Assembly: GCF_003336245.1 (NCBI RefSeq)
Contig: NZ_QPHM01000001.1
Coordinates: 2,236,113-2,300,112 of the forward strand
Direction of reading: 5' to 3'
Source: Haloplanus salinus
Lineage (GTDB): Archaea; Halobacteriota; Halobacteria; Halobacteriales; Haloferacaceae
DNA length: 64,000 nucleotides
The notes beneath the pieces are model-generated. The model made no database searches and was not told where the DNA came from. It worked only from the letters and a program-made list of their open reading frames with translations. The translations under genes and the position numbers were made by a program. This document shows positions 7,683 through 62,884 of the stretch, one piece after another (positions within the stretch are counted from its first letter, which is position 1; the number at the start of each line of letters is the position of its first letter).

Positions 7683-10600
7683 TCGCGTCGCCGGGCCAGC
7701 AGTCCGGCCACGAGGAGGGCGAGCAGTGCCACGACGGCCCCGAAGCCGGGGGCACTCGTGTCGCTGGTCGGCGTGGCGGTGGCCGCGTCCGTCGCCGTCG
7801 ACGCCGACGCGGGCGTCGGCGTGGACGTTCGGGTCGCGGTGTGTGTCGGCGTGGCGGTTGCCGTCGCTTCGTCGACCGTCACCTGTCCCACGGACACGTC
7901 GTCGACGTGGAGGGCGTACGTCCCGACCCCGTCGGGCGTGAGGGTGAAGGTGACGTCGGCAGTCTCGCCGGGCGCGAGATCGACGACGCGCGTCGCCGTC
8001 GTCTCGTCGCCGCGTCGTAGTGCGACGGTGTGGCTGCCGGTCGCTGTGCCGACGTTCTCGACGGTCGCAGTCACCGTCGTCGACTCCCCGACCGAGAGGG
8101 TCGTCCGCGACACCGCCGTCTCGCGCACGTCGAACGCGGGATCGCCGGCGGCGACGGCGAACACAGACAGCCCGGGCGTGTCGACGGTGTATCGGTGCGT
8201 GCCGGCCGTCGTCTCCGTGAGACTCGTCTCCACTGCCGTCCACGCGTCGTCGTGGTAGCGGTAGACGACCACGTCTTCCGGGGCGACGCCGCGTTCGTCG
8301 AGGGTGTCGGCGTCGACGGTCAGGTCGAACGTCGCGCCCGAGATGTCGGCCGCTCCGAGCGACGGGTGCTCGACCGATAGGTAGCCGACAACCCGTGACG
8401 GGGCGTCGGTCGACGCGGCCGGCAGGGAGGGAACGTCGTCGAACGACGACGCGTCGTCGGCGACGCCGACGGAGAGGTCGAACTCGCCGGCGGCGGTGAC
8501 GGTCATCGCGTCGAGGGTGACACTCGACCCCGCGGGCGGCGTCGGGAAGTCCACGTCGACAGGGTCGTCGCCGTCCGCACCGGTGACGCTGACCGACCCC
8601 ACGCCGGCGTTCGTGGAGATATCGACCGATGGACCGGTCACGTCGGCGATGCTCACGCTCCCGTCGCCTCCGCTACTCTCGCCCCCGCTTCTGCTCCCGC
8701 CACCTCCGCCGCTCGCCGCGGCTTCGACTGTGACGGCCACGGTGTCGGTGTCGGTGTTGCCCGCGCCGTCGATGACCCGGAGCGTCGCCGTTGCACTCCC
8801 CGCCGACGCGTAGGTGTGTGTGGCCGTCGTCGAGATGGTCGTGGTGTCGTAGGTGCCGTCGCCGTCGAAGTCCCACTCGTACTGCTGGATGCCGACGTTG
8901 TCCGTCGTCGCCGAGGCGTCGAAGGTGACGCTATCGCCGGCCGTCACCGTCCGGTCGCTCCCAGCGTCGGCCGTCGGTGCCGTGGTGTCGTCGCCCCCGG
9001 GACTGATCTCGACCGTCTCGGCGGAGTAGTGCGTGTCGAGTTCCATCTTGATCCCCGTCGACGTCTGGGTGAACGTCGCCTGTGTCTGACTTCCGCCGTA
9101 GGCGGCGCGGAGTTGCCCCGCCGAGGTGACGCCCCACTGTTCGAGCATGCCGTTCGGGATCAGCGCCTCGTAGTACCCCTGATTTTGACTCCCGTCGACG
9201 GTGAAGTGCGGGCCGGCGACCTGCACCGTGAGCCGCGGTTTCTGCGTGTTCGACCCCTGTCGGTACATGGGCGGCGAGAACGACTGCGCGTCGGTGACGA
9301 TGGTCCCGCCGGTGAGCGTCGTGCGGAAGCGAACGGGCGCGCGCGCCATGTTGTAGAAGGAGACCAGCGCCTGTGCCTCACGCATCGTCGTCGCCTGTTT
9401 GTTCTCCGCCGGCCAGTTGTTGTACGTCGGCTGGGTGCCGTCCTGATAGTAGAACCGCTGATTCTCGCGGGGTTCGATGAGGAGCGTCAGGTTCGCGGTT
9501 TCGGCCGTCGTCCCCGGCCCGACGGACCACGAGACGTCGCCGCCGGTCCCCATCATCATCCGCGGCGTGAAGTTGTCGAGTTCGAGTTCGACCTCGAACC
9601 GGGTGGTGCTGTCGGCACCGACGTTCGCGAGGTCAGCCTCCCCGTTCTGGACGCCCTGCGCCTTGAGGCGCACGTCGAGTTTGCCGTTCGAGACGGTGGT
9701 CCCGACCACGACGTCGCCGCTCGGTTGGGTCCCGCCGACCACGCGCACCGACGAGGCGACCACCGAGGGCGACCCGCGCGTCTCGACGGTGACGCCCGTC
9801 GGCGACTGCCCGCCGACGGCGACGGTGTGACTCCCCGCGTTCGCGAACGTCGTCGTGATCGTGACTTGCTCCGTCCCTCCGGCGGGGACGGTCACGTTCT
9901 TGGTCTGCACGACACTCCCGTCCTGATACAGCGGGACGAGCAGCCAGTCCTCGTTCGACCCGCCGTTCGACACCGTCGCGGTCACGTCGACGTCCTCGTT
10001 CTGCTCGACGGTCGTCGCGGAGAGGGAGTAGCCCGTCACGGACAGCGCGTTGCTGGGCTGGACGAGCAGCGTCTTCCGCTCGAACCCAATCCCACCGACG
10101 ACGTAGAGGTCGGCGAGGCCGGACTCGGAGCGACTCACCGTGAGCGTCGTCGTCTTGGTGGTGCTGGCCCCGACGCTCACCGACCGACTCGCCAACGTGG
10201 TGATCGACTCCGTGGTCCCCACGTCGAACACCTCGACGGTCGTCGACCCCGACGCGCTCCCGGTGTTGTTGAGGGTCACGTCGACGTCGACGTCCGTGCC
10301 CGGCGTCACCGTCGTCGACGAGAGCGACACCGAGTCGATGGTGATCCGGGCGGTGCCGCCGTCCCCGCCACCGTCGCCCGAACTCGACAGGAGCATCGAG
10401 GTATCGGTGGCGAGGACGTTCCCACTGCTCGTGTCGTTCAGCCGGTACGCGACGGACTGATCGCCGGTGAACGTCCCCGCCGACACCGTGAGGAGCGCGG
10501 ACCCCTCGGTAGCGGTGAGTGAGGCGTTGGCCGTGACGAACGCGCCGTCGGTGGCGTTGTAGAGTTCGACGGCCACGTCCGAGGGCGACGCCACTTGTCC

Positions 10601-10864
10601 GGTCGCGTTGTAAGCGACCGACAGCGAGGTGGTGGTCGTCGGATCGTGGCTCGTGTCGGAGTTGTTCACCCACGGCGCGGACGGGAAGCCAGTGAGATCG
10701 GCCGCCGTTGCCCCGCCGATAGCGGCCGGCGTCCCCGCCCAGTCGGTCGGTCCCGTCGTCGCTCCCGCTGGCGCCGCCGGTGCGACCAGCAATGCGAGCA
10801 CGAGCCCAGCCACGTGGGCGCGCCGCCACGGGATCGACGTGCCGTCGTCTCCTTGCATGCGCAT
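7679..10864 (-). CDS. Large secreted PGF-CTERM surface protein with CARDB-like and PKD domains
   Basis: About 1060 residues. I prefer the ATG at 10864 (MRMQGDDG); 10858 is also possible. A signal peptide follows (VAGLVLALLVAPAAPAGAT). Several CARDB-like beta domains occupy roughly residues 175-400 (repeated LSVTGYSLSATTVEQNEDVDVTATVSN patterns). A PKD domain is near residue 650 (FDASATTDNVGIQQYEWDFDGDGTYDT). A Ser/Gly linker follows, then another CARDB-like domain. The end APGFGAVVALLALLVAGLLARRRD is a PGF-CTERM tripartite tail, processed by archaeosortase A and lipid-anchored on the cell surface. The gene converges with moaC, their ends overlapping by 4 bases. Ligand or partner unknown. Confidence 0.88.
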   Translation of the reverse strand: MRMQGDDGTSIPWRRAHVAGLVLALLVAPAAPAGATTGPTDWAGTPAAIGGATAADLTGFPSAPWVNNSDTSHDPTTTTSLSVAYNATGQVASPSDVAVELYNATDGAFVTANASLTATEGSALLTVSAGTFTGDQSVAYRLNDTSSGNVLATDTSMLLSSSGDGGGDGGTARITIDSVSLSSTTVTPGTDVDVDVTLNNTGSASGSTTVEVFDVGTTESITTLASRSVSVGASTTKTTTLTVSRSESGLADLYVVGGIGFERKTLLVQPSNALSVTGYSLSATTVEQNEDVDVTATVSNGGSNEDWLLVPLYQDGSVVQTKNVTVPAGGTEQVTITTTFANAGSHTVAVGGQSPTGVTVETRGSPSVVASSVRVVGGTQPSGDVVVGTTVSNGKLDVRLKAQGVQNGEADLANVGADSTTRFEVELELDNFTPRMMMGTGGDVSWSVGPGTTAETANLTLLIEPRENQRFYYQDGTQPTYNNWPAENKQATTMREAQALVSFYNMARAPVRFRTTLTGGTIVTDAQSFSPPMYRQGSNTQKPRLTVQVAGPHFTVDGSQNQGYYEALIPNGMLEQWGVTSAGQLRAAYGGSQTQATFTQTSTGIKMELDTHYSAETVEISPGGDDTTAPTADAGSDRTVTAGDSVTFDASATTDNVGIQQYEWDFDGDGTYDTTTISTTATHTYASAGSATATLRVIDGAGNTDTDTVAVTVEAAASGGGGGSRSGGESSGGDGSVSIADVTGPSVDISTNAGVGSVSVTGADGDDPVDVDFPTPPAGSSVTLDAMTVTAAGEFDLSVGVADDASSFDDVPSLPAASTDAPSRVVGYLSVEHPSLGAADISGATFDLTVDADTLDERGVAPEDVVVYRYHDDAWTAVETSLTETTAGTHRYTVDTPGLSVFAVAAGDPAFDVRETAVSRTTLSVGESTTVTATVENVGTATGSHTVALRRGDETTATRVVDLAPGETADVTFTLTPDGVGTYALHVDDVSVGQVTVDEATATATPTHTATRTSTPTPASASTATDAATATPTSDTSAPGFGAVVALLALLVAGLLARRRD

Positions 10865-10932
10865 CACTCTCAAACGGGGGGCAAAAACGTTCCCCGCCGG
10901 GTATCAGATGTGATACCGCGTGACCGAGCGCG

Positions 10933-12228
10933 TCAGGCCGACTCGACGGCGGCGAGATCACTCGCCTTGGCGCGAGCGCGTTCCACGATGGAGGGCCGGG
11001 CTTCGAACTCCAGTACGACCTGTTCGCCCTCGTAGGTCTCGCCTTCGACGTTCGCGTGATCGTGGACCCACGAGACGAGGCTCATCGTGTCGTCGGCCAT
11101 GGGGAGGACGAGGCGTTCGAACCGCCAGTCCGGAAGTTCGTCCTCGATCCGGTCACGGAGTCCGTCGACGCAGTCGCCGGTCAGGCCGGAGACGGCGACG
11201 GGGTTGGGCGCCAGTGCCGAGAGCGCCTCGCGCTTCTCCGCGAGTGCGTCGTCGTCGACGCGGTCGATCTTGTTCAACACCGTCACGATCGGCGCCTCGT
11301 TGCGTTCGTACAGCGTGTCGTGACAGGTGACGAGTTTCTCGCGCATCGCCTCGACCGACTCGCTGGCGTCGACGACGAGAAGGACGAGGTCGGCGTGATA
11401 CACCGAGTCGAGCGTGGACTCGAAGGATTCGACCAGCCAGTGAGGGAGGTCGGAGACGAAGCCGACGGTGTCGGTCAGGAGTACGTCCCGCTTTCCGGTG
11501 TCGGCCCGGCGGGTGGTGGTCCCGAGCGTGGTGAACAGCCGGTCCTCGCTCTCCGCGGTGGTGTCGAGGTCGGGATGGCGGTCCTCGTTCTCGTCCACGT
11601 CGAGTTCGGCGGCGAGACGGCGCATCAGCGTCGACTTCCCGGCGTTCGTGTAGCCCGCGAGGGCGACGAGGTCGAATCCGGACTCGCGGCGCTGGTCGCG
11701 CCGCGTCTCCGCCTTCTCCGCGATGGCGTCGAGTTCCCGCTTGATCTCCGCAATCTGGTTTTTGATGTCGCGTTCCCGGCTCTCGTCGTACTCGCCGAGG
11801 CCCATGAAGCCCGGCCGCTCGTCGCGTTTGGCGAGGCTCGTCTTGGCCTCGGCGCGCGGCAGTTCGTAGCGGAGTTCGGCGAGTTCGACCTGGAGCTGGG
11901 CCTTGCGGGTCCGTGCTCGCTGGCCGAAGATGTCGAGAATGAGCGTGAACCGGTCCACCACCTCGACGCGGTCGGGGAGCTTCCCCCCGATATTGAAGGT
12001 CTGATACGGCCCGAGACGGTTGTCGACGATCACGGCGTCGGCGTCGGTGCGCGCCGTGAGCGCCGCGAGTTCTTCGACCTTTCCCTCGCCGAAGGCGTAG
12101 GCGGCGTCCTCCTCGCGGGTCTGCGTGAGTTCGCCGACCACCTCGTAGCCCGCGGAGCGTGCGAGGTCCCTGATCTCGCTCAGGTCGGCGTCCCCGCGCT
12201 CGACGCGTTTGGCGACGACTGCCCTCAT
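10933..12228 (-). CDS. hflX: GTPase HflX
   Basis: 431 residues from the ATG at 12228 (MRAVVAKRVERGD); an upstream in-frame GTG would add 22 residues unlike the family. An N-terminal HflX domain (1-165) has the glycine motif FGEGKVEEL and a coiled linker with GQRARTRKAQLQVELAELRY. The GTPase domain follows with G1 AGYTNAGKST, G3 DTVGFVSDLPHWLVESF and G4 NKID. HflX binds 50S subunits and rescues or splits stalled ribosomes. A TATA-like TTTAAG lies about 65 bases upstream. Confidence 0.95.
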   Translation of the reverse strand: MRAVVAKRVERGDADLSEIRDLARSAGYEVVGELTQTREEDAAYAFGEGKVEELAALTARTDADAVIVDNRLGPYQTFNIGGKLPDRVEVVDRFTLILDIFGQRARTRKAQLQVELAELRYELPRAEAKTSLAKRDERPGFMGLGEYDESRERDIKNQIAEIKRELDAIAEKAETRRDQRRESGFDLVALAGYTNAGKSTLMRRLAAELDVDENEDRHPDLDTTAESEDRLFTTLGTTTRRADTGKRDVLLTDTVGFVSDLPHWLVESFESTLDSVYHADLVLLVVDASESVEAMREKLVTCHDTLYERNEAPIVTVLNKIDRVDDDALAEKREALSALAPNPVAVSGLTGDCVDGLRDRIEDELPDWRFERLVLPMADDTMSLVSWVHDHANVEGETYEGEQVVLEFEARPSIVERARAKASDLAAVESA

Positions 12229-12339
12229 CGGTCCACCGTCCGGATCGTGTAGCTTCCCTGCACGTTCTACTGCCGAGGTAGGCGCTCGAACCACTTAAAC
12301 TCCGCTCGCCGGGGCGTTTCGCCGACCGTCACCGCCGAA

Positions 12340-12365: not shown

Positions 12366-12459
12366 TCCACACAGTTTCCCCCGTCTCGCGCCCGGTTCGG
12401 CAACGGATCGGTCGGTGGTTCGACTCCACCGGTGGGACCTCCCGGAGGGGGAAGCCACG

Positions 12460-13875
12460 ATGCCACGGGAGTTCACGCTCTCACGACGGACGGCCCTCGC
12501 CGCCCTCGGCACCGTCGGCGTCGCGTCGGCGGGTGCGGGGGTGGGCACGAGTGCCTTCTTCAGCGACGGGGAATCGTTCGAGAACGACCGACTGGTGGCC
12601 GGCACGCTCGATATGAAGGCGGCCTACTCGGTCCACTACTTGGACTGGTCCGCGGACGAACTGGACGGCATCGACGACGACGCCGTCACCACGACCGGCC
12701 CTATGACGGAGTTCGATCCCGGGCCGAGGTCGCTGCCCGGCATCGAGTTCGCCACGGAGGGCGACCGACAGCAGTTCCTCGCGAACACGCTGGTGCACGC
12801 GGACGGCGACGCGTCCTGTCCGGACGGCACCGACGCGGACGACCTCCAACGGCCGGTCGTCGAACTGGACGACCTCAAGCCCGGCGACCACGGCGAGGTC
12901 ACGTTCGACCTCGCGCTGTGTGACAACCCGGGGTACGTCTGGCTGGGGGTCGCCGACGCCACGGCCGCCGAAAACGGGTATACGGAGCCGGAACGTGACG
13001 ACCCCGACGAATCCGGCCTCGAAACGCTGCCCGGCGAACCGCCGACGGACCATCACGTCGAACTCCTCGACGCCGTCCGGGCCGCCTACTGGATCGACGA
13101 CGGTGACGACTACGTGGACGGCGACGAGGCGTTCCAGTCGCGGGGGTCGCTCCGGGACGTCCTCGGGGACCTCTCGGGGATCGGTGTCGCGCTCGAGGGT
13201 GACGTGTCGTCCGAACGTGGCGGTGGCACGGGCGGGCAGGGCTGCTTCTCCCCCGGACGGCACTCCGTCGGGTTCGTCTGGTGGCTGCCGGTCGACCACG
13301 CAAACGAGACACAGAGCGACTCGGTGCGGTTCTCGCTGACATTCTACACCGAGCAGTGCCGCCACAACGACGGGACCGGCGACCGGCTCTCGGCGTTCGT
13401 GAACGACGACGCGCCGCTCAACGAGCGACCGTGGGACGGGGCCGTCGCCGACCGGACCGGCCACCCCGAAGTCGTCGTGACGAACAACGCCCTGACCCAA
13501 GTGACCTTCCCGGACGTGCCACCGTTCGGGCCGCCACCGCAGACGTTACCGCTCGGGTTCGACCCGCAGGTGGTCCGAGTCTCGCCCGGGACGACCGTCA
13601 CGTGGCACTGGGCGACGTACGCCGACCCGTTCCCCGACTTCTTCGACGAGATTCCGCACAACGTCGTCGCGCCGGACGGGTCGTTCAGCAGCGGTCCCCC
13701 GGAGCCAGCGACGACGGCGTCCGACTTCAGCCACACGTTCACCGAACCGGGACTCCACCCGTACGTCTGTGTGCCCCACGGCAGCACGCAGTTCCATCAC
13801 TCCTCCCCCGGCGTCCCGTTCCAGGAGGTGATCAACGAGTCGGGTATGCGGGGTGCCATCCTCGTCGAGGATTGA
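12460..13875 (+). CDS. SipW-type signal peptide protein fused to a cupredoxin domain
   Basis: 471 residues from the ATG at 12460. The N-terminus REFTLSRRTALAALGTVGVASAGAGVGTSAFFSD is the SipW-dependent type signal of TasA/CalY-like proteins, in which FFSD marks the mature start. Residues about 20-330 are a TasA-like beta domain with several Cys (ASCPDG, LALCDNPGYVWLG, EQCRHNDGTGDRL). From about residue 345 a plastocyanin/halocyanin-like domain follows with all four type-1 copper ligands: His in IPHNVVAPDG, Cys and His in YVCVPHG, and Met in GMRGAI. It probably carries copper on the cell surface or on filaments. The fusion is uncommon. Confidence 0.82.
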   Translation: MPREFTLSRRTALAALGTVGVASAGAGVGTSAFFSDGESFENDRLVAGTLDMKAAYSVHYLDWSADELDGIDDDAVTTTGPMTEFDPGPRSLPGIEFATEGDRQQFLANTLVHADGDASCPDGTDADDLQRPVVELDDLKPGDHGEVTFDLALCDNPGYVWLGVADATAAENGYTEPERDDPDESGLETLPGEPPTDHHVELLDAVRAAYWIDDGDDYVDGDEAFQSRGSLRDVLGDLSGIGVALEGDVSSERGGGTGGQGCFSPGRHSVGFVWWLPVDHANETQSDSVRFSLTFYTEQCRHNDGTGDRLSAFVNDDAPLNERPWDGAVADRTGHPEVVVTNNALTQVTFPDVPPFGPPPQTLPLGFDPQVVRVSPGTTVTWHWATYADPFPDFFDEIPHNVVAPDGSFSSGPPEPATTASDFSHTFTEPGLHPYVCVPHGSTQFHHSSPGVPFQEVINESGMRGAILVED

Positions 13876-30938: not shown

Positions 30939-31013
30939 TGCTCCGACAGGGATTCGAACCCTGGTCATTGCCGTGAGAGGGCAATATGATTGGCCGGACT
31001 ACACTATCGGAGC
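30939..31013 (-). tRNA. tRNA-Glu (anticodon CTC)
   Basis: A complete cloverleaf on the minus strand. The acceptor GCTCCGA (31013-31007) pairs with TCGGAGC (30946-30940), with discriminator A at 30939. The D-loop has GTCCGGCC. The anticodon stem TTGCC/GGCAA encloses loop CTCTCAC with anticodon CTC at 30977-30975. The T-arm is AGGGTTCGAATCCCT. CCA is not encoded. A TTAAAG TATA-like box lies near 31037. Base composition falls sharply on the right of this gene, so it may mark an integration boundary. Confidence 0.93.
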
Positions 31014-45470: not shown

Positions 45471-46741
45471 CAGTTTTCACCCTCGTTTTCGAGCGCCGCA
45501 TCAACGACCTTCACCGCGGGCTCCGGGGCCGAGGGAATCGCGTCGTCGAAGTAGAGCGGGTACATCCACGTCAGCGGGCGTGAATCGGAAACGCCGTGAA
45601 CCGTGGCTGTCGGAGCGCCCCACACGCCGATGGATTCCTCGTAGTCACCGGGCGGGCTGATCGAGCCGGACATAATGACCGGAACGAGCCCGTTAATCCC
45701 GAGGATGTGCTCGATTTTCGTCTCGTGGAAGTGACCGCGGTAGGCTATGTCGAACTTGTGTCGACGGACCCACGTTCCCCACCGCTCTTTGGCCGAGTTC
45801 GTGCCAATGTGCGAGAGGGACTTGTGACCGTGGCGGAGGTGGCCGCGCCAGCGACTGTTCCGCATCGTGAAGTTCGTGAACAGCGTCGACTCGTTTTGAA
45901 TGACAGTCACGTTCGTCATCGAGGAGATCGACACCATCCGCGCCAACATTTTGTAAACCGCAGAGTCAGCGTTCGCGCCAGCAGACGGCCCCTTCACGCG
46001 CAATTCGCCGTGATTGCCGGGCTGGCACACCACCTGAACGGTGGGGAAGCGGGCCGAGAGTTCCTGAATCTGCTCGAAGTAGAGCTCAACCGCGAGGTCG
46101 ATCTGCTCATCGAGATTCAGGCACAGCTCGTGCGCTTGCGACGGGAAGATACCTTCGCCGGTCACAATGTCGCCACCAAGCAGGAGGTGGGCCGTGTCGA
46201 ACACGGACCCCGCGGCCTCTTGCCGGTCAATAAGCTCCATTGCGCGGCGGGTAACTTCGCGGATACGCTCGGCGGCGATCTCGTCGTCGAAAATGACGTT
46301 GCCAAATTCGTCGTGCGAGAACGCTCCAATGTGGTCGTCCGTCCGGTGGATAACCACGTCTTCGTGTCCGACTTCGTAAGCGAGACCACCGTCGGCAAGC
46401 GCCGGGGGCGTTTCATTGAGAAGCGCGTCGAGGCGAGCGTTCAGCTCTCGAAGGTGCTCGTTACGAAGTTTTGTTTCGGTCTGTTTGGACAGAGGTGCGT
46501 CCGTCGATGCAACTACGTGTTGTGTGCTCCGACGGAGCTGTTCGGTCTCTGACTTGGGGGAGGCGGATACTTCATAGACTCCTGAGGAGTCTCGGTCGAA
46601 CACGTATCCCTTCTTCCGAAGGCGAGAAAGAAAACCGCGAACGGAAGAGCGGGCGTAATTCAGGGACACAGCGATTTCGCTGGTCGTCGCCGGTAACTGG
46701 TCGAGAACGGACTGCTCCGCAGGAGATGGAATGTTGGTCAT
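45470..46741 (-). CDS. MRE11-like metallophosphoesterase with N-terminal winged helix
   Basis: 423 residues. Residues 1-60 form a winged helix (SPAEQSVLDQLPATTSEIAVSLNYARSSVRGFLSRLRKKGYVFDRDSSGVYEV). The phosphoesterase domain shows HRTDDHIGAF (DxH), HLLLGGDIVTG (GD), VCQPGNHGELR (GNH), HGHKSLSH (H) and AYRGHFHETK (GHxH). All metal ligands are present. It is likely a nuclease or phosphatase acting in the element's replication, as it lies next to the primase and ATPase. Confidence 0.85.
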   Translation of the reverse strand: MTNIPSPAEQSVLDQLPATTSEIAVSLNYARSSVRGFLSRLRKKGYVFDRDSSGVYEVSASPKSETEQLRRSTQHVVASTDAPLSKQTETKLRNEHLRELNARLDALLNETPPALADGGLAYEVGHEDVVIHRTDDHIGAFSHDEFGNVIFDDEIAAERIREVTRRAMELIDRQEAAGSVFDTAHLLLGGDIVTGEGIFPSQAHELCLNLDEQIDLAVELYFEQIQELSARFPTVQVVCQPGNHGELRVKGPSAGANADSAVYKMLARMVSISSMTNVTVIQNESTLFTNFTMRNSRWRGHLRHGHKSLSHIGTNSAKERWGTWVRRHKFDIAYRGHFHETKIEHILGINGLVPVIMSGSISPPGDYEESIGVWGAPTATVHGVSDSRPLTWMYPLYFDDAIPSAPEPAVKVVDAALENEGEN

Positions 46742-49733: not shown

Positions 49734-49741
49734 GGTTCAGG
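49734..49741 (-). promoter_or_regulatory. CCTGAACC motif before the 49729 gene
   Basis: Exact 8-mer (CCTGAACCCAAAATG) in a 140-base gap. The gap also holds GCTGACCACGCC, repeated in the leader of the 50865 gene. Confidence 0.5.
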
Positions 49742-50865: not shown

Positions 50866-51006
50866 TTGTGTGATCTCCTGTTGGGAGAAGACGCCGCCAA
50901 AGAACGGCGGCTGGGAGAACCGGGCGTGGTCAGCGCCCGCAAAATCGCAGATCGCAGACCGCAAACACAGAGTGCAAAAGACGAGTCAACGCCCCAAAGG
51001 GGGCAG

Positions 51007-51053
51007 AGCTACACCGGGGAATTGAACCCCGGTCGGGGGAGCCACCCGTAGCT
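51007..51053 (-). ncRNA. tRNA-like minihelix 1
   Basis: Minus strand: acceptor AGCTAC pairs with GTAGCT. Inside are a mini-hairpin GGG-TGGCT-CCC, a CCGA linker, and a T-arm CCGGGG-TTCAATT-CCCCGG. There is no D or anticodon arm. Two bases after the acceptor comes a GC hairpin GCCCC-CTTT-GGGGC (51004-50991). It lies in the leader of the 50865 gene. Confidence 0.7.
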
Positions 51054-51116
51054 ACCATTAAAGAGAACTATCAATGAATGGTACAACTTGTCGGTTAGTG
51101 TGTCTCAGAAAGCCCC

Positions 51117-51169
51117 GAAGCCCCGGAGGAATCGAACCTCCTCTCAGCACCAGCGGCGGATACGGCTTC
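51117..51169 (-). ncRNA. tRNA-like minihelix 2
   Basis: Acceptor GAAGCC pairs with GGCTTC. The T-arm is GGAGG-TTCGATT-CCTCC. About 21 unstructured bases replace the D and anticodon arms. The flanking hairpin is less clear than in the other copies. Confidence 0.55.
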
Positions 51170-51266
51170 GAGTATTGGGGGAAAGTTGAGTTGACTGCGT
51201 GCGCCTGCTTCGCGCAACCGACCGAACGGTGGACAACAGGGGGAAGTGACAACCCCGCGTCCACAG

Positions 51267-51325
51267 GGACAACGACTGGAGTCGAACCAGTCAGAGCGCC
51301 AAGTAGCTCCGCCGCCTTTTTGTCC
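51267..51325 (-). ncRNA. tRNA-like minihelix 3
   Basis: Acceptor GGACAAA/GTTGTCC (6 of 7 pairs). T-arm GACTGG-TTCGACT-CCAGTC. The 26-base middle may form one small hairpin (GAGC/GCTC). A long hairpin GTGGAC...GTCCAC (51264-51229) follows 2 bases later. A TATA-like ATATTATAG lies just upstream at 51330-51338. Confidence 0.6.
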
Positions 51326-54566: not shown

Positions 54567-54626
54567 GGAAGGGGAAGAAGGATGGTCGGCTACGAGCCGG
54601 AGGCCGTCACCGGACCTCGTAGCGCC

Positions 54627-55868
54627 TTACTCGGCGTTGCCTTCCTCCATCGCCATCATCAATTTGTTAATGCGTTCCTCGCGGGCCTCGAACTCCTCCT
54701 TACGCTCACGGAGGCTCTGGCTGTACCGCTCGACGGTCGCCAGCCCGCGCTTCTGGCTGAAGGACAGCTCGCCGTTGTTCTGGATTTCAGCACGGCGACG
54801 CTCGCGCCGCTCGTACTCGGCCTCGATTACTTCCATCGTCTCGGCGGGGTTGTCGAGAATCCGCCGGGCCGTGAAGTAGTAATCTTCGAGCTTGCCTTCC
54901 TCAGCGCGACCACGGAACGAGTGGGTCAGCGCGTAGGTCAGCCCGGAGTGAAGCACCCACTTGTTCAGGCGGTTGCGAGACCCATCCTCGGTCTGCCCAC
55001 GCGCCTTCGCGTCTTGGGCCGCCGCGTTCGCCAGATACTCGGGGACGCCGAGCATCTGGTAATACTCGGAGACGGAGTAGGGAAGCTCAGCGAAGTCCAT
55101 CTCGATTTCGAGAGCTTCGCTGATTAGCTCAAGCAGGTAGTCGCGGATTGCGCCCATCTGATCGAGCAGGTCCATAATCCAGTCGTGGTACTCCGAGGGC
55201 TGGCCGACGTGCCGCCGGCTCAGCTTCTCAGTCAGCGCCCGGAAGCTGTTATCGCATTGCGTGTCGTAGGCGAATCCCCGAGCGTACAGCGCCATTGAGC
55301 CGTCGAAGCTGTTGCCCGTCTGAATCCCCACGTAGAGAGGCTGGCGGCCACCCGGCGGGTGAACCAGCTCGTCGGTGAGGTAAATGTCGCCGTGGACCTT
55401 CCGCCCGTAGTCGTAGACGCGAAACTCCCCGAGAATCGCGTCGTTGAGATCGGCGTCCTCGAAGGCATCGGCCCACGGAGACCACGCCTCAACGGGGTTG
55501 ATGATGGTGTATTGGTTGCTCGACACCGCATACACCATCGCGTCGCCGTTCTCAATGTCTCCAGCCGTGAATGCCTCCGCCAACTCCGGGTTGACAACCG
55601 CGTTCGCCGTGCTAATCGGAATGTTGTGCTCCCGACCGGGATTGAACGGGTTAGTCACCTCGATCTCGCTCGTGGTCGCTGTTGGGAGCTGGCGGATCGC
55701 GTCGGAGAAGGACAGCTCCGGTCGGTCGTCGAGGCCGAGTTTCCCGAGGATGCTCTCGGGCATATCCATCTGGAAGTTGTCGAAGGCAGTCACACCCGCG
55801 AAGGGAATCGTGTAGTATTCGCTCAGCGTTACACCGGCACCGCTCTCTGCATCGTTGGTCTCGCTCAT
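54627..55868 (-). CDS. Hypothetical protein, DUF932-like
   Basis: 413 residues. LYVGIQTGNSFDGSMALYARGFAYDTQCDNSF and the flanking beta-rich region recall DUF932 phage/plasmid proteins, judged by pattern only. The C-terminus is a long charged helix (AEYERRERRRAEIQNNGELSFSQKRGLATVERYSQSLRERKEEFEAREERINKL), probably coiled coil. The leader has CCTGAACC 4 bases before the ATG, a GC hairpin and tRNA-like element 5. Confidence 0.65.
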   Translation of the reverse strand: MSETNDAESGAGVTLSEYYTIPFAGVTAFDNFQMDMPESILGKLGLDDRPELSFSDAIRQLPTATTSEIEVTNPFNPGREHNIPISTANAVVNPELAEAFTAGDIENGDAMVYAVSSNQYTIINPVEAWSPWADAFEDADLNDAILGEFRVYDYGRKVHGDIYLTDELVHPPGGRQPLYVGIQTGNSFDGSMALYARGFAYDTQCDNSFRALTEKLSRRHVGQPSEYHDWIMDLLDQMGAIRDYLLELISEALEIEMDFAELPYSVSEYYQMLGVPEYLANAAAQDAKARGQTEDGSRNRLNKWVLHSGLTYALTHSFRGRAEEGKLEDYYFTARRILDNPAETMEVIEAEYERRERRRAEIQNNGELSFSQKRGLATVERYSQSLRERKEEFEAREERINKLMMAMEEGNAE

Positions 55869-55872
55869 ATCG

Positions 55873-55880
55873 GGTTCAGG
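55873..55880 (-). promoter_or_regulatory. CCTGAACC motif before the 55868 gene
   Basis: Exact 8-mer between the leader hairpin CCCCC-AACGGTA-GGGGG (55899-55883) and the ATG. Confidence 0.55.
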
Positions 55881-55900
55881 TTCCCCCTACCGTTGGGGGA

Positions 55901-55951
55901 AGCGTCGCCGGGGAGTCGAACCCCGGTATGGTGGCCCTACCACTCGGCGCT
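55901..55951 (-). ncRNA. tRNA-like minihelix 5
   Basis: Acceptor AGCGCCG/CGACGCT (6 of 7 pairs), a mini-hairpin GTGG-TAGGG-CCAC, a 4-base linker CATA, and a T-arm CCGGGG-TTCGACT-CCCCGG. One discriminator-like T follows, then the GC hairpin. The 5' part overlaps the last five codons of the zinc-ribbon gene, whose stop TAG lies in the mini-loop. Confidence 0.75.
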
Positions 55952-56077
55952 ACCAAAAACGTCGTCGCACCCGGAACACCACAACTGAATTAATCCTGCT
56001 TCGTAGTCTCGTACCTCGCTTTTATCGACGCGGTTCAAGTGGCCGCACTCCGGGCACGACACCTCGATAATTTTCAT
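55937..56077 (-). CDS. Tiny zinc-ribbon protein (46 residues)
   Basis: MKIIEVSCPECGHLNRVDKSEVRDY, then LIQLWCSGCDDVFGSAEW: two CxxC pairs, typical of a single zinc ribbon. Its 3' end is built into tRNA-like element 5. Its ATG directly follows the stop of the membrane peptide gene. Confidence 0.7.
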   Translation of the reverse strand: MKIIEVSCPECGHLNRVDKSEVRDYEAGLIQLWCSGCDDVFGSAEW

Positions 56078-56185
56078 CTACCCACACCCTCCGCCTACTC
56101 CGAGCAGAAACGAGAGGTAGGAATAGATGAGAACCGCGCCTCCCAACCAGAGGGTGAGCCGCAGGTTCTCAACGTCTACAGCCAT
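56078..56185 (-). CDS. Membrane micro-protein (35 residues)
   Basis: MAVDVENLRLTLWLGGAVLIYSYLSFLLGVGGGCG: one hydrophobic helix. It overlaps the stop of the gene upstream by one base and abuts the next start. Small but in a coupled gene run. Confidence 0.55.
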   Translation of the reverse strand: MAVDVENLRLTLWLGGAVLIYSYLSFLLGVGGGCG

Positions 56186-56433
56186 CAGTCCGCCTGCCGT
56201 TCCACGAGTTGGAGCGACTCCCGCCGGTTGTTTCGCGTCACCGCCGGGTCGTTAAAGCGGTCAATCTCGCCGTTCGCCCACTTGACGACGGTCGGGATGA
56301 ACAGGTCGGCCCAATCCGTGTAGGCCAGCACTTCGTAGTGCTCGCCTTCCGACACATCGCTCGCCATCATCGGGTGCATCCCGGCGGCCTTCGCGTTGTG
56401 AATCCGCCCAGCAATGCTAATGTCGTCGCTCAT
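56185..56433 (-). CDS. Hypothetical 82-residue protein
   Basis: MSDDISIAGRIHNAKAAGMHPMMASDVSEGEHYEVLAYTDWADLFIPTVVKWANGEIDRFNDP... with acidic N-terminus. No family recognised. It lies 3 bases after the previous gene. Confidence 0.65.
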   Translation of the reverse strand: MSDDISIAGRIHNAKAAGMHPMMASDVSEGEHYEVLAYTDWADLFIPTVVKWANGEIDRFNDPAVTRNNRRESLQLVERQAD

Positions 56434-56436
56434 CGC

Positions 56437-56718
56437 CTATCGCCCCTTCTGATCCGCCTTCTCCAGATTCTCGATTGTGTCCTCCAGATTGTCGTCGAGC
56501 GCCCGAGCGGATTTTGCGCCCAAACACGCCAGCCGCGTAATCGCGGAGAGGTGGAGAATCGCCTGCCGAACCTTCGCGTCTTTGTGCGTGTCTCCGAGCG
56601 CATACCGAGCGGATTCCGCGGCGTCGATGATGGTCTCGAACTCGGCCTCCATCTCCCCGACGAGCCGCTGTCGGTCAATGGTCAGCTCGTCGGCCAGAAT
56701 CCGGGGCTTGAAACTCAT
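56437..56718 (-). CDS. Hypothetical 93-residue helical protein
   Basis: MSFKPRILADELTIDRQRLVGEMEAEFETIIDAAESARYALGDTHKDAKVRQAILHLSAITRLACLGAKSARALDDNLEDTIENLEKAD: almost entirely helical, possibly a small bundle. Overlaps the 56852 gene by 4 bases. Confidence 0.67.
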   Translation of the reverse strand: MSFKPRILADELTIDRQRLVGEMEAEFETIIDAAESARYALGDTHKDAKVRQAILHLSAITRLACLGAKSARALDDNLEDTIENLEKADQKGR

Positions 56719-56852
56719 CGCGCCCTCCGCCCGCTCTCGTGGTTCCGTGAGATTCGGAGCGCCGCGTGGTAGCGAGATGACCAGTAGTCGGTCGGGTAGA
56801 GGTTCTTCAGCGTGCTGTTCGTCACCGATTGGTAGTTGGTCATTTTCCGCAT
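56715..56852 (-). CDS. Hypothetical 45-residue protein
   Basis: MRKMTNYQSVTNSTLKNLYPTDYWSSRYHAALRISRNHESGRRAR; a second ATG is at 56843. CTGAACCC precedes the first ATG by 2 bases, with a GC hairpin and tRNA-like element 6 upstream, which supports this as a real gene start. Confidence 0.6.
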   Translation of the reverse strand: MRKMTNYQSVTNSTLKNLYPTDYWSSRYHAALRISRNHESGRRAR

Positions 56853-56883
56853 AGGGTTCAGTCCAGCCCCCCTTCCGGGGGCA

Positions 56884-56926
56884 ATCCGATTCGGGGAGTC
56901 GAACCCCGAGGCCGCCGCTATCGGAT
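56884..56926 (-). ncRNA. tRNA-like minihelix 6
   Basis: Acceptor ATCCGAT pairs perfectly with ATCGGAT. The T-arm is CGGGG-TTCGACT-CCCCG, with an 11-base link in place of the D and anticodon arms. One T follows, then hairpin GCCCCC-GGAAG-GGGGGC (56882-56866), then CTGAACCC and an ATG. Confidence 0.78.
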
Positions 56927-56946
56927 AGGCCGAGAGAGGGCCGAGA

Positions 56947-57219
56947 TCAGCAGGAGACTTCTTCAGCGAAGTAGTGACTCACGTTGTAATACTCAATGTC
57001 ACCAGCTTCGAGCTGAGCCGTCGTCACTCGTTGCGCCCGAGCGAAAGCGTCGAACGGGCTGGTGGCAACGACTTGTTCAACGACGCGAAGAATCCCGCGC
57101 TCCTCGCTGATTACCTCGACGGAGTTTGCGTGAACCAGCTCCTCGTAGGCCGCCTCGATATTTTCAGGCGGAAGACGCACGTCCAGACTCGCCTCGTATA
57201 TTACGGTCTTCCTCGTCAT
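56947..57219 (-). CDS. Hypothetical 90-residue protein
   Basis: MTRKTVIYEASLDVRLPPENIEAAYEELVHANSVEVISEERGILRVVEQVVATSPFDAFARAQRV... an alpha/beta pattern. No family recognised. Start overlaps the stop of the gene upstream. Confidence 0.67.
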   Translation of the reverse strand: MTRKTVIYEASLDVRLPPENIEAAYEELVHANSVEVISEERGILRVVEQVVATSPFDAFARAQRVTTAQLEAGDIEYYNVSHYFAEEVSC

Positions 57220-57626
57220 AGGTGATCTACCTCAAAGAGCGCACTTCCGAAGCCGTCGTTATCTCCGGGGTAGAACGCCAGAGACCACCCCATCTCGTAG
57301 TAGTCTGTGTCGTATTCCGGCGGGTGCCAGTACGATCCTCGCGACGTTCGGTAGGTCACACCCACGTCGAAGCGGCCAAGGAACCGGATTCCCCAACCGC
57401 GTTCTCGATCAGTAATGGTCTCATAGTCCTCGAAGTCGTCTCTCAGCTCGTAGACCGGAGGAACCGACTCGTTCTCAGCTCCGTCGGGAAGCGCCATCTG
57501 AACATCTTCGTTTCGTAGGACTTCCAGGGCGAGTGAGAACGCCACAGTAGCGATAGTCTCCAGCGGAATTTCTACGGTCTCTACTTCGGTCTCGGATTCA
57601 GATTCAGGTTCAGGGGTTCCACTCAT
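57216..57626 (-). CDS. Hypothetical 136-residue protein
   Basis: ATG at 57626 (MSGTPEPESESETEVETVEIPLETIATVAFSLALEVL), chosen over a GTG three codons upstream. Middle and end are beta-like (WGIRFLGRFDVGVTYRTSRGSYWHPPEYDTDYYEMGWSLAFYPGDN). Its IATVAFSLALEVLRNEDVQMALPDG is loosely like the small paralogues at 44123-44538. Confidence 0.66.
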   Translation of the reverse strand: MSGTPEPESESETEVETVEIPLETIATVAFSLALEVLRNEDVQMALPDGAENESVPPVYELRDDFEDYETITDRERGWGIRFLGRFDVGVTYRTSRGSYWHPPEYDTDYYEMGWSLAFYPGDNDGFGSALFEVDHL

Positions 57627-57631
57627 TTGTA

Positions 57632-57868
57632 TCACTTTACGCCGCCCAACAGGCGGAATCGCTCACCGAGGAGCGGGAGTTCGTTTTCAGCCGGTACACG
57701 AACAACGCCGATTACGTCGTCCGGGCTAACGTACACGCCGCGGTCGCCGGACTGAATGTGTACGCGCTTCGGGCCGACCGAGCGCACGGTGCCGTCAACT
57801 TTCTCGCCGTCGTAGCAGAACCGGACAATGAGACCCGGCTTCAGCTCAACGAGGTTGTCGTCGCTCAT
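57632..57868 (-). CDS. Hypothetical 78-residue beta protein
   Basis: ATG at 57868 (MSDDNLVELKPGLIVRFCYDGEKVDGTVRSVGPKRVHIQSGDRGVYVSPDDVIGVVRVP). The strand pattern suggests an SH3- or KOW-like barrel. One base after the hydratase stop, so co-expressed with it. Confidence 0.68.
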   Translation of the reverse strand: MSDDNLVELKPGLIVRFCYDGEKVDGTVRSVGPKRVHIQSGDRGVYVSPDDVIGVVRVPAENELPLLGERFRLLGGVK

Positions 57869-57869
57869 T

Positions 57870-58301
57870 TCATTCTCCGGCTTCAGCCAGCGGATCGAGG
57901 AGAATCGTGGCGTCACCAGCGATAACGCGGTCGCCGTTCTCAGTTACTACACGAACGTCACACGAGTACGCTCCGCCACCGAGATCGACGACGATCTCCG
58001 CGACGCCGGTCAGCATCTCTCCAAACGAGACAGGCTTCAGGAAATCGAGGTGCTGATCGAGGAACACGACAACCGAATTGTGCGTTCCGAATTTCGCCAG
58101 CGCCGCCGAGATCAGCGAGGCAGTCAGCGCCCCGTGAACGATGTTTCCGCTGAAACGCGAGCGCCGCCCGGTCGATGGGTGGAGGTGAAGCGGGTTACGG
58201 TCGCCGGAAAGATCAGCGAATAGCTGGACTTCTGGTAGGTCGAAGCGGGCGCTGTGTGTTCGGGTCTGTCCTTCTTCTAAGTGGTCTACTGCAAGGTTCA
58301 T
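57870..58301 (-). CDS. MaoC-like hydratase (hot-dog fold)
   Basis: 143 residues from the ATG at 58301 (MNLAVDHLEEGQTRTHSARFDLPEVQLFADLSGDRNPLHLHPS). The R-specific hydratase motif is F-ADLSGDRNPLHL...FSGNIVHGALTASLISAAL, with the catalytic Asp and His (DxNPxH). Such enzymes hydrate enoyl-CoA. Its presence among replicon genes is odd. A variant motif CCTGACCC lies 6 bases before the ATG. Confidence 0.88.
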   Translation of the reverse strand: MNLAVDHLEEGQTRTHSARFDLPEVQLFADLSGDRNPLHLHPSTGRRSRFSGNIVHGALTASLISAALAKFGTHNSVVVFLDQHLDFLKPVSFGEMLTGVAEIVVDLGGGAYSCDVRVVTENGDRVIAGDATILLDPLAEAGE

Positions 58302-58344
58302 TTTGGGGTCAGGTTTTAGGTCATTGATCGGTCGACGGGCGGTA

Positions 58345-58590
58345 CTACTCGGCGTCCAAGTCGTCGACACGTCGGAGGTTCAGGTTACGAACTCCGAGAT
58401 CGACAGCACGGACGGTGAATAACTCGTGAGCAATTTCGACGTGGCTAACCCCCTCGACTAATTCAGGATCAGTCAGCTCGCCAACGGTCAATCGCTCCGA
58501 CGTATCCAGCGCAGTTGTCAAACACGACACCACCAACGCGAGCGATTCGCGGTTGATGTGGGGAGAATCGTGTTCTGGTACTCTACTCAT
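58345..58590 (-). CDS. Hypothetical 81-residue protein
   Basis: MSRVPEHDSPHINRESLALVVSCLTTALDTSERLTVGELTDPELVEGVSHVEIAHELFTVRAVDLGVRNLNLRRVDDLDAE. No family recognised. The leader holds a GC hairpin and tRNA-like element 7. Confidence 0.65.
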   Translation of the reverse strand: MSRVPEHDSPHINRESLALVVSCLTTALDTSERLTVGELTDPELVEGVSHVEIAHELFTVRAVDLGVRNLNLRRVDDLDAE

Positions 58591-58636
58591 AGCTGTAGGT
58601 TCATCCTCATTCCCCGGTTGATACTCGCGTGGGGAA

Positions 58637-58680
58637 AACCGAGGGCGGGGCGCGAATCCCGCCGGTAACGCTACTCAGTC
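58637..58680 (-). ncRNA. tRNA-like minihelix 7
   Basis: Acceptor GACTGAG/CTCGGTT (7 pairs, two G-U), 10-base link TAGCGTTACC, T-arm GGCGGG-ATTCGCGC-CCCGCC. Two T follow, then a CCCC...GGGG hairpin with a 15-base loop (58634-58612). It precedes the 58590 gene. Confidence 0.7.
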
Positions 58681-58691
58681 AGCCGTTCAGA

Positions 58692-60020
58692 TCAGTCCCA
58701 CCGACGACGGCCACCCTGCCGGGCCAGCGACGCGACTTCCCGACCGTGGGTAACGACGCGGTGCCACCGCTCACGGAGGTTAATCATCGGGTGGTCGCCC
58801 CCGGTGTGGCGCACCGTGCCCCGGACGTACCCACCGATCACCGTCTCGCCGTCGTCGTCGTAGATCGGGGCGAAATCACGCGGAACGTGTCGACCGAGAA
58901 GCGCCGATGCCGGGCTGTGGTTGAATCCAAACGAGAGCGGGAGAATCTGACCGTCGTAGTAGGTCACGCCGGTATCGGTGTCTCGAATCCCGAGTCCAGC
59001 TCCGACCTTCGTTGGCTCGTAGTTGCCCGCTGGGAAGCTCGCCGGGGCCTGCTCCACGTCGTCAACGGTCTTGGTGAGAACGCCCTGAGAGAGCGGCTTG
59101 AAGATAGGGACGTCTTCTGGCTCGAAGTCCTCGTCCATCGGGATGAAGAACCACTCGCCCTGCCGGATAATCTGGTTGCCCCGGCGTAGCGCCCACAGCG
59201 ACGGGCGGCCTTCGTAGACGCTCATCCCTTCGGCTTCGGCTTCGCGCACTTCCGTCGGAGTCAGCAGATCGAGTGCGTCCTCCATCACCCGAATGTTCTC
59301 CATCTCCTCGGGGTCTAGGCGGAATGCGAACCGGCCAGTATTTTCGCGAGTCACGTTCGCCGTCTTATCCCGACCGATGACGTAGCCGAATCCCTGAGAA
59401 AACTCGACGAGCTTCACGCCACTTCCCGCTCGAATCCCGATAATATCTTCGAGGCGTTCGCCGCGCTGGAGGAAGCCGTCGAGCGAGGTGAGCGGAAGTT
59501 CGCCGTGCGCTCGGGGAGCTGGCGAAACGTAGGAGTAGCGACCGACCGCCCAATCCTCGTCGTTGTTAATTACGAGGCCGTTGTGGGTGCGGATCGCCGC
59601 GATAGTCCGGTGGTGCATAAGCCGCCCGGAGCCGTCGACGTTCTGCCGGCCCATCATCGACTGCCCGGAGTTCCACATCGCCGCGTTGTCCCCCCTCGTC
59701 ATTTCGTGGGCCGGGAATTTCATCTCGCGCCACGCCTTCGCCACCTCAGTTTGGCTGGCGTAGACAGCCTTCCCGCTCACTTCGTAGTCAGGGTGAATCA
59801 GCTTCCAGCCGTAGGCCGTCTTTGCCCACTTTCGGTCGGGCTGAATTTCGTCGAGGAGGGCGATTGCGTCGCCAATTCCCTCGGGAAGCTCGGCGGCGTA
59901 GAAGGCTTCGAGGTCTTCAGCAGTTGGATGTTTGGGGCCAGAGAGATCGAGACGAATTTCCACGTCGTTGTTGGTCTGGTTGTTGTCGTTGCCGTAGCTA
60001 CCGCTGGTCTGTTGGTACAT
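58692..60020 (-). CDS. Hypothetical protein of the element (442 residues)
   Basis: ATG at 60020 (MYQQTSGSYGNDNNQTNNDVEIRLDLSGP). The upstream TTG frame NPEPETK is the CCTGAACC leader. The middle is beta-rich (HRTIAAIRTHNGLVINNDEDWAVGRYSYVSPAP, GSGVKLVEFSQGFGYVIGRDKTANV), and the end Arg-rich (RWHRVVTHGREVASLARQGGRRRWD). Its short Asn/Asp/Gly-rich N-terminus resembles that of the 50865 gene. No family recognised; a virion or DNA-packaging role cannot be excluded. Confidence 0.72.
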   Translation of the reverse strand: MYQQTSGSYGNDNNQTNNDVEIRLDLSGPKHPTAEDLEAFYAAELPEGIGDAIALLDEIQPDRKWAKTAYGWKLIHPDYEVSGKAVYASQTEVAKAWREMKFPAHEMTRGDNAAMWNSGQSMMGRQNVDGSGRLMHHRTIAAIRTHNGLVINNDEDWAVGRYSYVSPAPRAHGELPLTSLDGFLQRGERLEDIIGIRAGSGVKLVEFSQGFGYVIGRDKTANVTRENTGRFAFRLDPEEMENIRVMEDALDLLTPTEVREAEAEGMSVYEGRPSLWALRRGNQIIRQGEWFFIPMDEDFEPEDVPIFKPLSQGVLTKTVDDVEQAPASFPAGNYEPTKVGAGLGIRDTDTGVTYYDGQILPLSFGFNHSPASALLGRHVPRDFAPIYDDDGETVIGGYVRGTVRHTGGDHPMINLRERWHRVVTHGREVASLARQGGRRRWD

Positions 60021-60030
60021 TTTGGTTTCA

Positions 60031-60038
60031 GGTTCAGG
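60031..60038 (-). promoter_or_regulatory. CCTGAACC motif before the 60020 gene
   Basis: Exact 8-mer, with a near copy CCTGAAACC right after it, 10 bases from the ATG. Confidence 0.5.
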
Positions 60039-60101
60039 GTTCAACCGGCCACTCGAAGCCGGCGCTCGGTTCTCAATCCTTCCCCCTGCTTTCTCGGGGG
60101 A

Positions 60102-60144
60102 TTCGTCGTCGGGGAGTCGAACCCCTGTATTTCCACTCGACGTT
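60102..60144 (-). ncRNA. tRNA-like minihelix 8
   Basis: Acceptor AACGTCG/CGACGAA (5 of 7 pairs), 12-base link, T-arm GGGG-TTCGACT-CCCC. One T follows, then hairpin CCCCC-GAGAAAGCA-GGGGG (60100-60082), then the 60020 gene. Confidence 0.6.
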
Positions 60145-61532: not shown

Positions 61533-61578
61533 AGGCCCCGCGGCGGGAGTCGAACCCGCCGCGTATCAATCGGCCCCT
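61533..61578 (-). ncRNA. tRNA-like minihelix 9
   Basis: Strong T-arm GCGGCGGG-TTCGACT-CCCGCCGC. The acceptor AGGGGCC/GGGGCCT pairs in 5 of 7 positions with a G-G internal loop. 9-base link GATTGATAC. The GNRA hairpin CCCC-GAAA-GGGG starts immediately after. Confidence 0.65.
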
Positions 61579-61677
61579 GATATTTCGGAGCCGGGGTTGC
61601 CTTTCGGGGCGGAGTTTCCTTTCGGGCACTCAACCAATCATAACGTCTACCGAAGTCGTGGCCTGCAATCAGGCCAA

Positions 61678-62776: not shown

Positions 62777-62841
62777 TAGTCACTTCTTGGGGTTTGGTCG
62801 TTCGGTGGTACGTCGGTCGTTTCCCCTGATTTTTCGGGGAA

Positions 62842-62884
62842 GCCCGCCGGGGGAATTGAACCCCCGTAAGTCCATTACGGGCCG
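62842..62884 (-). ncRNA. tRNA-like minihelix 11
   Basis: Acceptor GGCCCGT/GCGGGCT (7 pairs, G-U at both ends), 10-base link AATGGACTTA, T-arm CGGGGG-TTCAATT-CCCCCG. One T follows, then hairpin CCCC-GAAAAATCA-GGGG (62840-62824). It lies in the leader of the 62776 gene. Confidence 0.76.

Follow-up and report, generated by a model that had tools for sequence, protein, structure and literature searches.

What does a tRNA-like fold do when it is built into the end of a protein gene? The question is raised by an element, E3, that belongs to the right-hand portion of a provirus carried by a haloarchaeal chromosome (the window, i.e., the whole 64,000-nt stretch of DNA analysed, is G000:C1:2236113-2300112), where the last codons of a small gene run into a tRNA-like minihelix. 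A preliminary description of this DNA held that ribosomes finishing the gene would unfold the element, so that translation and RNA processing could compete. From sequence comparison, we consider it probable that E3 is a t-element, a tRNA-like processing signal that tRNase Z cuts at the 3′ side within polycistronic viral RNA.

E3 and its siblings in the provirus

The features at the locus are as follows.

55951-55898, minus strand: E3, tRNA-like minihelix (58.4 bits with model R1, of which it is a training member)
55937-56077, minus strand: zinc-ribbon-like reading frame of 46 aa, its final codons and TAG lying within E3
55882-55900, minus strand: stem-loop UCCCCC-AACGGUA-GGGGGA, beginning at the base 3′ of the E3 discriminator
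54627-55868, minus strand: 413-aa gene downstream of E3, phrog_13083, function unknown

On the minus strand, 55951-55898 reads A-GCGCCG-AGTGGTAGGGCCACCATA-CCGGGG-TTCGACT-CCCCGG-CGACGC-T, the segments being acceptor, insert, T-stem, T-loop, T-stem, acceptor and discriminator in that order. The acceptor, GCGCCG (55950-55945) with CGACGC (55907-55902), has 6 bp including one C.A mismatch; the T-stem has 6 bp, the insert 18 nt, and the discriminator is 55901. RNA folded in isolation takes up the E3-shaped fold, which has the acceptor and T-arm stack with a tRNA-type T-loop that characterizes a t-element; neither E3, with its 18-nt insert, nor the other window elements have the cloverleaf and anticodon arm of a functional tRNA gene (ARAGORN, Rfam). 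The reading frame translates as MKIIEVSCPECGHLNRVDKSEVRDYEAGLIQLWCSGCDDVFGSAEW, for which no Pfam family was found, and ends GGT-AGC-GCC-GAG-TGG-TAG, a stretch containing both the acceptor 5′ strand GCGCCG and an arm, GTGG (55943-55940), with the TAG (55939-55937) in the loop of a mini-hairpin. The overlap between a tRNA-like element and the 3′ end of a coding gene, as first described, is therefore real on both sides, fold and reading frame. The accompanying claim that the last codons and stop form the element stands for the acceptor 5′ strand, the GTGG arm and the TAG in the mini-loop, with the qualification that the acceptor carries a mismatch. The mini-hairpin itself is present in E3 and is not general: it was rejected as the conserved part, being missing from most copies and from L008 (IMGVR_UViG_3300027007_000029, a relative of the provirus with 83-91% DNA identity over aligned pieces >100 nt), and the common part is a GG at insert positions 4-5.

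Eight E3-type elements, all on the minus strand, lie between 51.0 and 62.9 kb of the window. Besides E3 they are:

62838-62883, minus strand: E1; next gene start 62776, stem-loop 62821-62841
61535-61610, minus strand: E4, GCCCCG/CGGGGC, long insert with its own hairpin (weak with R1, 16.1 bits); next gene start 61508, stem-loop 61520-61533, minus strand
60099-60144, minus strand: E5, terminal A.A mismatch (perfect GCGTCG/CGACGC in the L008 copy); next gene start 60020
56881-56926, minus strand: E2, TCCGAT/ATCGGA; next gene start 56852, stem-loop 56866-56882
51264-51325, minus strand: E6, tandem copy 1 of 3, without adjoining stem-loop
51115-51170, minus strand: E7, tandem copy 2 of 3, without adjoining stem-loop (weak with R1, 17.0 bits)
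51004-51053, minus strand: E8, tandem copy 3 of 3; next gene start 50865, stem-loop 50991-51004

The acceptor and T-stem together come to about 12 bp, as in tRNA, with a varying split (for E4 and E7 a count of 13 fits best). The tandem copies E6, E7 and E8 (51004-51325) all precede one gene. A TGAACCC leader motif stands 8-23 nt before the ATG at window positions 49739, 55878, 56860, 60043 and 61101 (minus strand), and is present also at genes that have no element.

E3-type elements are commoner than chance in the provirus. Over 19 kb of provirus, a descriptor combining a TTCRANY loop, a T-stem, an acceptor of 6 nt and an insert of 7-20 nt of any sequence found 6 places; 100 Markov shuffles gave 0.22 on average and at most 2, and 16 kb across the other side (L005) gave 0. 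That the window elements are an RNA fold is supported by covariation. In a set of nine elements, five from the window and four from L008, which are the same nine that trained R1, pairing is 93.5%, compared with 71.3% when the 3′ letters are shuffled and 41-56% when they are slid; both sides have changed at 8 of 12 pairs, and the covariation score is 0.574 versus 0.158. A set of 30 distinct rows, A2, gives 95.9% versus 66.9% for pairing and 0.621 versus 0.142 for covariation, figures that lean towards the model because A2 was fitted to it; A2 includes L024 3011-3044, which ends at the locus edge, and L027 2711-2749, which overlaps a tRNA call. Alignment rows are orthologues and paralogues mixed. 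L008 carries the same elements at matching positions, and these often differ from their counterparts by paired changes. In E8 the window's T-stem CGGGG/CCCCG corresponds to CGAGG/CCTCG in L008; in E3 the L008 acceptor is a fully paired GCGTCG/CGACGC. Folding energy was rejected as evidence, since E3 does no better than dinucleotide shuffles (z -0.50, within a range of -0.4 to -2.1 in this GC-rich sequence), and support for the pairing is thus the covariation.

As to the provirus, the tRNA-Glu gene at 30939-31013 shares a direct repeat of at least 35 nt with L005:14659; the two copies are likely the proviral attachment sites, and the repeat is consistent with a provirus of about 60 kb. No DNA similarity to named phages was found for the region 54600-60100. 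A stretch of a second, 409-kb replicon (L006, G000:C3:150001-168000) is dense in real tRNA genes (ARAGORN's count, the two calls in the window included, is 17) and was rejected as a source of further elements, being a real tRNA array.

Recurrence in viruses, 5S leaders and host genes

R1 searched the complete records of 14 named haloviruses, together with the L008 contig and one plasmid; its E-values, and those of a second model, R2, are rough owing to a shortened calibration. At E <= 0.05 there were 20 matches in 8 of the 14 viruses: 7 in HRTV-7, 5 in HSTV-2, 2 each in HF2 and Serpecor1, and 1 each in HHTV-2, HCTV-2, HRTV-4 and HFTV1 (partial). The L008 contig, not counted here, gave 7, four of them training members. 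Hardycor1, HCTV-1, HGTV-1, HHTV-1, PhiCh1, BJ1 and the plasmid had no match at this threshold. Since HSTV-2/HRTV-7 and HF2/Serpecor1 are related pairs, the independent loci number fewer than 20. According to the records' own annotation, 19 of the 20 matches fall within or span a gene junction and share the strand of the gene downstream; the exception, HSTV-2 45512-45572, is inside gene 68, and its HRTV-7 counterpart is an annotated gap. Gene 68 (NC_020159 45461-45766) is an ORF that spans the element, is unannotated in HRTV-7 and is perhaps no gene. No RNA annotation was found at the matched elements in the feature tables examined. HF2 also has an annotated intergenic hammerhead ribozyme at 10292-10359, perhaps a second means of cutting halovirus transcripts; an HF1-group paper names tRNA-like sequences and a hammerhead ribozyme as matters for further study (PMC7230728).

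Beyond the fold, a stem of at least 5 bp begins 1-4 nt past the acceptor in 17 of 19 viral elements (window 8, HSTV-2 6, HF2 2, and HHTV-2, HCTV-2 and HRTV-7 1 each; L008, Serpecor1, other HRTV-7 near-copies and the HRTV-4 and HFTV1 matches were left out), the exceptions being E6 and E7. Shuffled controls for the 19 gave a mean of 1.58 and a maximum of 5 over 300 rounds, and shifted controls 1, 0 and 0. After the hairpin comes a short leader, then the start codon, such that, as at a t-element, the RNA that would be matured starts directly 3′ of the acceptor. The hairpin is present in 12 of 31 host copies (shuffled, 2.68), behind none of three 5S-leader elements, where the 5S terminal helix is perhaps too long-range for the test, and behind 4 of 17 true tRNAs, a figure that counts against reading the elements as cut sites.

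Seven non-training descriptor matches in virus and host sequence have a 9-10 nt insert, and five of these have GG at positions 4-5; the two without, Hardycor1 L035 14518 and window 15492, look like chance. Where the insert is 10 nt long, as in 20 host and 5S copies, this GG is present in 15 and a G at position 5 in all 20. In tRNA, G18-G19 of the D-loop dock on the T-loop, and by analogy the insert GG probably imitates that docking.

At E <= 0.1, R1 also matches the stretch immediately upstream of the 5S rRNA gene in 2 of 12 genomes of the genus (L020, L026, L030), with E of 9.2e-5 to 0.009 per genome, rough values from few sequences; R1 thereby identifies the viral elements and the 5S leader as one kind of element. 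The 5S-leader t-element is a tRNase Z substrate in H. volcanii, according to PMC3296008 and PMC4326828, and this match is the main reason for regarding the viral elements as cut sites.

Cellular copies exist as well, including one in the window outside the provirus.

12383-12438, plus strand: host copy, GTCTCGC/GTGGGAC with a GCAA hairpin as insert (weak with R1, 17.5 bits)
12460-13875, plus strand: host gene behind it, with a SipW-type/Tat-like signal and a halocyanin-like copper domain (PF00127 above cutoff; TIGR03102 and TIGR04088 both below theirs)

Within the phylum R1 finds 4 of 80 genomes, 4 of 11 in the provirus host's own order and 0 of 69 outside it, to which the outsiders' lower GC may contribute. 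R2, built without the L024 and L027 rows of A2, has matches in 54 of 79 genomes of the family and 24 of 28 genera, a survey that is not independent because R2 was trained partly on host copies. Taking one R2 locus per genome, the next ORF within 150 nt has a twin-arginine-like start at 20 of 29 loci, against 49 of 580 random positions drawn from those loci; at the other 9, a 5S rRNA gene is next in 3 and something else in 6. By eye, many of the proteins behind cellular copies look TasA/SipW-like. Copies in the leaders of Tat/SipW-type genes often stand several to a cluster (L007 6197 and 6935, plus strand; L076-L102). The notion that the host matches are tRNAs was rejected, since at 26 of 27 loci ARAGORN places no tRNA on the element; in the remaining one, L102, a tRNA-Glu call overlaps it. 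In two genomes of the genus (L017, L029), a conserved intergenic stretch contains two T-arm-like repeats ending CCGGCCCGTT, possibly a small RNA.

Outside the haloarchaea, IMG/VR and genome_contigs were scanned with a pattern of T-arm, 11-12 nt and TCCCC, with acceptor and insert not required. Among the matches listed, an acceptor at an insert of 7-20 nt accompanies 11 of 96 viral matches without a tRNA call, 5 of 13 in seven named haloarchaeal loci and 8 of 54 in other genomes, so the acceptor test alone does not separate the groups. One locus, L209 (IMGVR_UViG_3300042465_007743, reverse complement 7673-12255), has 13 small genes in succession. A T-arm element, a TCCCC-loop-GGGG hairpin and a leader with GAAGGGAG stand in front of every one of them; in 12 of 13 the distance from T-loop start to ATG is 64 nt, and at 10 of 12 junctions the stop codon of the gene before ends 15-20 nt ahead of the T-loop. 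L347 shares this array. The L209 portal protein has a low-identity likeness to portals of many bacterial phages, and judging from sequence the host is probably bacterial. Four further loci (L114, L200, L205, L173) are arranged alike, and their leaders are mostly purine-rich. R1 gives the L209-like loci E of 3e-5 to 0.05, a score biased because they were chosen by T-arm.

Proposed processing and its alternatives

If E3 is a t-element, its acceptor/T-stem stack would mimic the upper half of a tRNA. Recognition by the host's tRNase Z would then lead to cleavage 3′ of the discriminator, predicted between 55901 and 55900. Of the two products, the upstream mRNA would retain its stop codon and acquire a tRNA-like 3′ end, and the downstream mRNA would start with a stable hairpin, followed by a short leader and the start codon; some stabilisation of the mRNA might follow. 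A 3′ cut seems the likelier one at E3, since a 5′ cut by RNase P would remove the stop of the zinc-ribbon gene. In HF2, RT-PCR detects transcripts as long as 35 kb, whereas Northern bands measure 0.5-9 kb, mostly 1-2.5 kb, for which the authors suggest processing (PMC8707807); cutting by tRNase Z at the elements would reconcile the two. Several observations count against cut sites, however. Six of the 14 named haloviruses had no match, E6 and E7 are without the hairpin, and the folding energy of E3 is unremarkable. Some HSTV-2 and HRTV-7 copies have non-canonical T-loops (TCACT, TTCACGA), one HHTV-2 copy takes another fold in isolation, and a published HF2 (L032) primer-extension 5′ end, T-4384, falls within the element at 4374-4418. 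RNA begun there lacks the acceptor 5′ strand, and only read-through RNA carries the whole element. T-4384 is either an additional transcription start, a cut or a reverse-transcriptase stop. A 2012 Haloferax study, too, reportedly predicted further tRNA-like elements, and those tested are said to have shown no cleavage.

The same 5′ end would leave T-arm and hairpin in the leader, which is what one would expect if the fold and hairpin were never cut and served the downstream mRNA as an element for translation, stability or antitermination; the elements do lie in 5′ leaders adjoining start codons. A plain leader hairpin, though, has no need of acceptor covariation or of a match by R1 to the 5S tRNase Z substrate, and we think this reading unlikely.

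The competition between translation and processing that was originally suggested for E3 has to be judged at the corresponding place in related viruses. Homologues of the 413-aa protein, at 28-33% identity, occur in HSTV-2, HRTV-7, HCTV-2, HHTV-2 and Hardycor1, and 0 relatives were found among 38 pattern stretches of genome_contigs. An element precedes the homologue in HRTV-7 (54581-54626, R1 E 3.6e-7), and HSTV-2 has, by eye and missed by R1, a degenerate AGGCGT..ACGCCT with CGGGG-TTCACGA-CCCCG. Fold and downstream gene are thus kept in four viruses (window, L008, HSTV-2, HRTV-7), whereas the upstream gene differs: a different CxxC ORF in L008, with its TGA immediately before the acceptor; CxxC gene 84 in HSTV-2, ending GGC-GTA-GAG-TAA inside the element; and a LAGLIDADG endonuclease with a 17-nt overlap in HRTV-7. 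The comparison of homologous loci that the preliminary description proposed therefore divides its expectation: stem pairing is conserved in L008, HSTV-2 and HRTV-7, and the upstream reading frame is not. Homologues keeping the protein end while losing the pairing, which would have spoken against the idea, were not seen; across the four viruses it is the opposite. The element is consequently the conserved feature, and the coding overlap is independent of any particular protein.

In all four viruses the upstream stop codon sits at or within the element's 5′ edge, so that a terminating ribosome could hide the 5′ strand in many copies and competition may occur. A switch in which the ribosome completing the upstream gene unfolds the element would draw on this, and on the 10 L209 junctions. 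Other elements, however, lie 18-60 nt behind the upstream stop, meaning that coding overlap is not required; compact genomes account for overlap without function, and 5S leader copies have no adjoining gene end of that kind. As an explanation of the element, such a translation-gated switch strikes us as quite improbable.

As intergenic GC-rich hairpins the elements might pass for transcription terminators or attenuators, but with no U-run behind them (by eye, the T-run of an intrinsic terminator is absent), a same-strand start codon soon after, and a T-loop and insert GG unnecessary for termination, this is very unlikely. Least credible of all are decayed tRNA genes or attachment-site scraps, despite the tRNA genes and tRNA-like attP sites that PMC8707807 gives for haloviruses: there are eight sequences of one geometry that covary between copies and have a fixed place by start codons, in the window Rfam recovers nothing but tRNA-Glu at its gathering threshold, none of the window elements receives a tRNA call from ARAGORN, and the provirus att repeat is located elsewhere.

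Were cleavage by tRNase Z confirmed, it would answer a question open in print, namely how long halovirus transcripts become the short mRNAs of Northern blots; a tRNA enzyme would gain a role in viral mRNA processing, the 5S t-element would extend to viral and cellular mRNAs, and 5′ ends would be predictable to the base in the cultivable viruses HF2, HSTV-2 and HHTV-2. The elements may also serve as natural cassettes releasing mRNAs with defined ends. Only tentatively would we go further, to a widespread prokaryotic-virus system of tRNA-like punctuation in which haloarchaeal viruses, and separately some bacterial phages, might close each cistron with a minihelix that host tRNase Z, RNase P or both would cut, a stop often built into its 5′ edge possibly gating the cut, with haloarchaea using the same device for 5S rRNA and SipW/TasA-like secreted-protein leaders.

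Known tRNA-like elements

The closest known system is the Haloferax volcanii 5S t-element, which shares the acceptor/insert/T-arm geometry and the GG in the insert. It matures an rRNA, whereas the viral elements lie between protein genes with a hairpin directly behind, and the cellular copies stand in leaders of secreted-protein genes. A crRNA flanked by engineered t-elements is processed in Haloferax cells (PMC4326828, PMC4946936). Those flanking elements are likewise tRNA-like and give RNase P and tRNase Z a place to cut in vivo, but belong to an artificial construct, in contrast to the natural viral junctions here.

Farther afield, a tRNA or tRNA-like fold divides a longer transcript in mitochondrial tRNA punctuation, plant mitochondrial t-elements and the MALAT1 mascRNA, by way of larger, cloverleaf-like folds in other organisms; we know of no adjoining 5′ hairpin in any of them. 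The C4/CI antisense RNAs of phages P1 and P4 have RNase P sites and thus tRNA-like processing in phage RNA, but are single regulatory RNAs and not repeated gene junctions. The tRNA-like domain of tmRNA, with acceptor, T-arm and D-loop GG and no D-stem, resembles the viral elements in these respects; tmRNA has a CCA end, is charged with alanine and serves trans-translation, a different role. No description of such use in viruses or mRNAs was found in the open-licence literature, which misses most subscription journals. t-Elements, then, are already known; what is new is their repeated use in viruses, and in some cellular mRNAs, with an adjoining 5′ hairpin.
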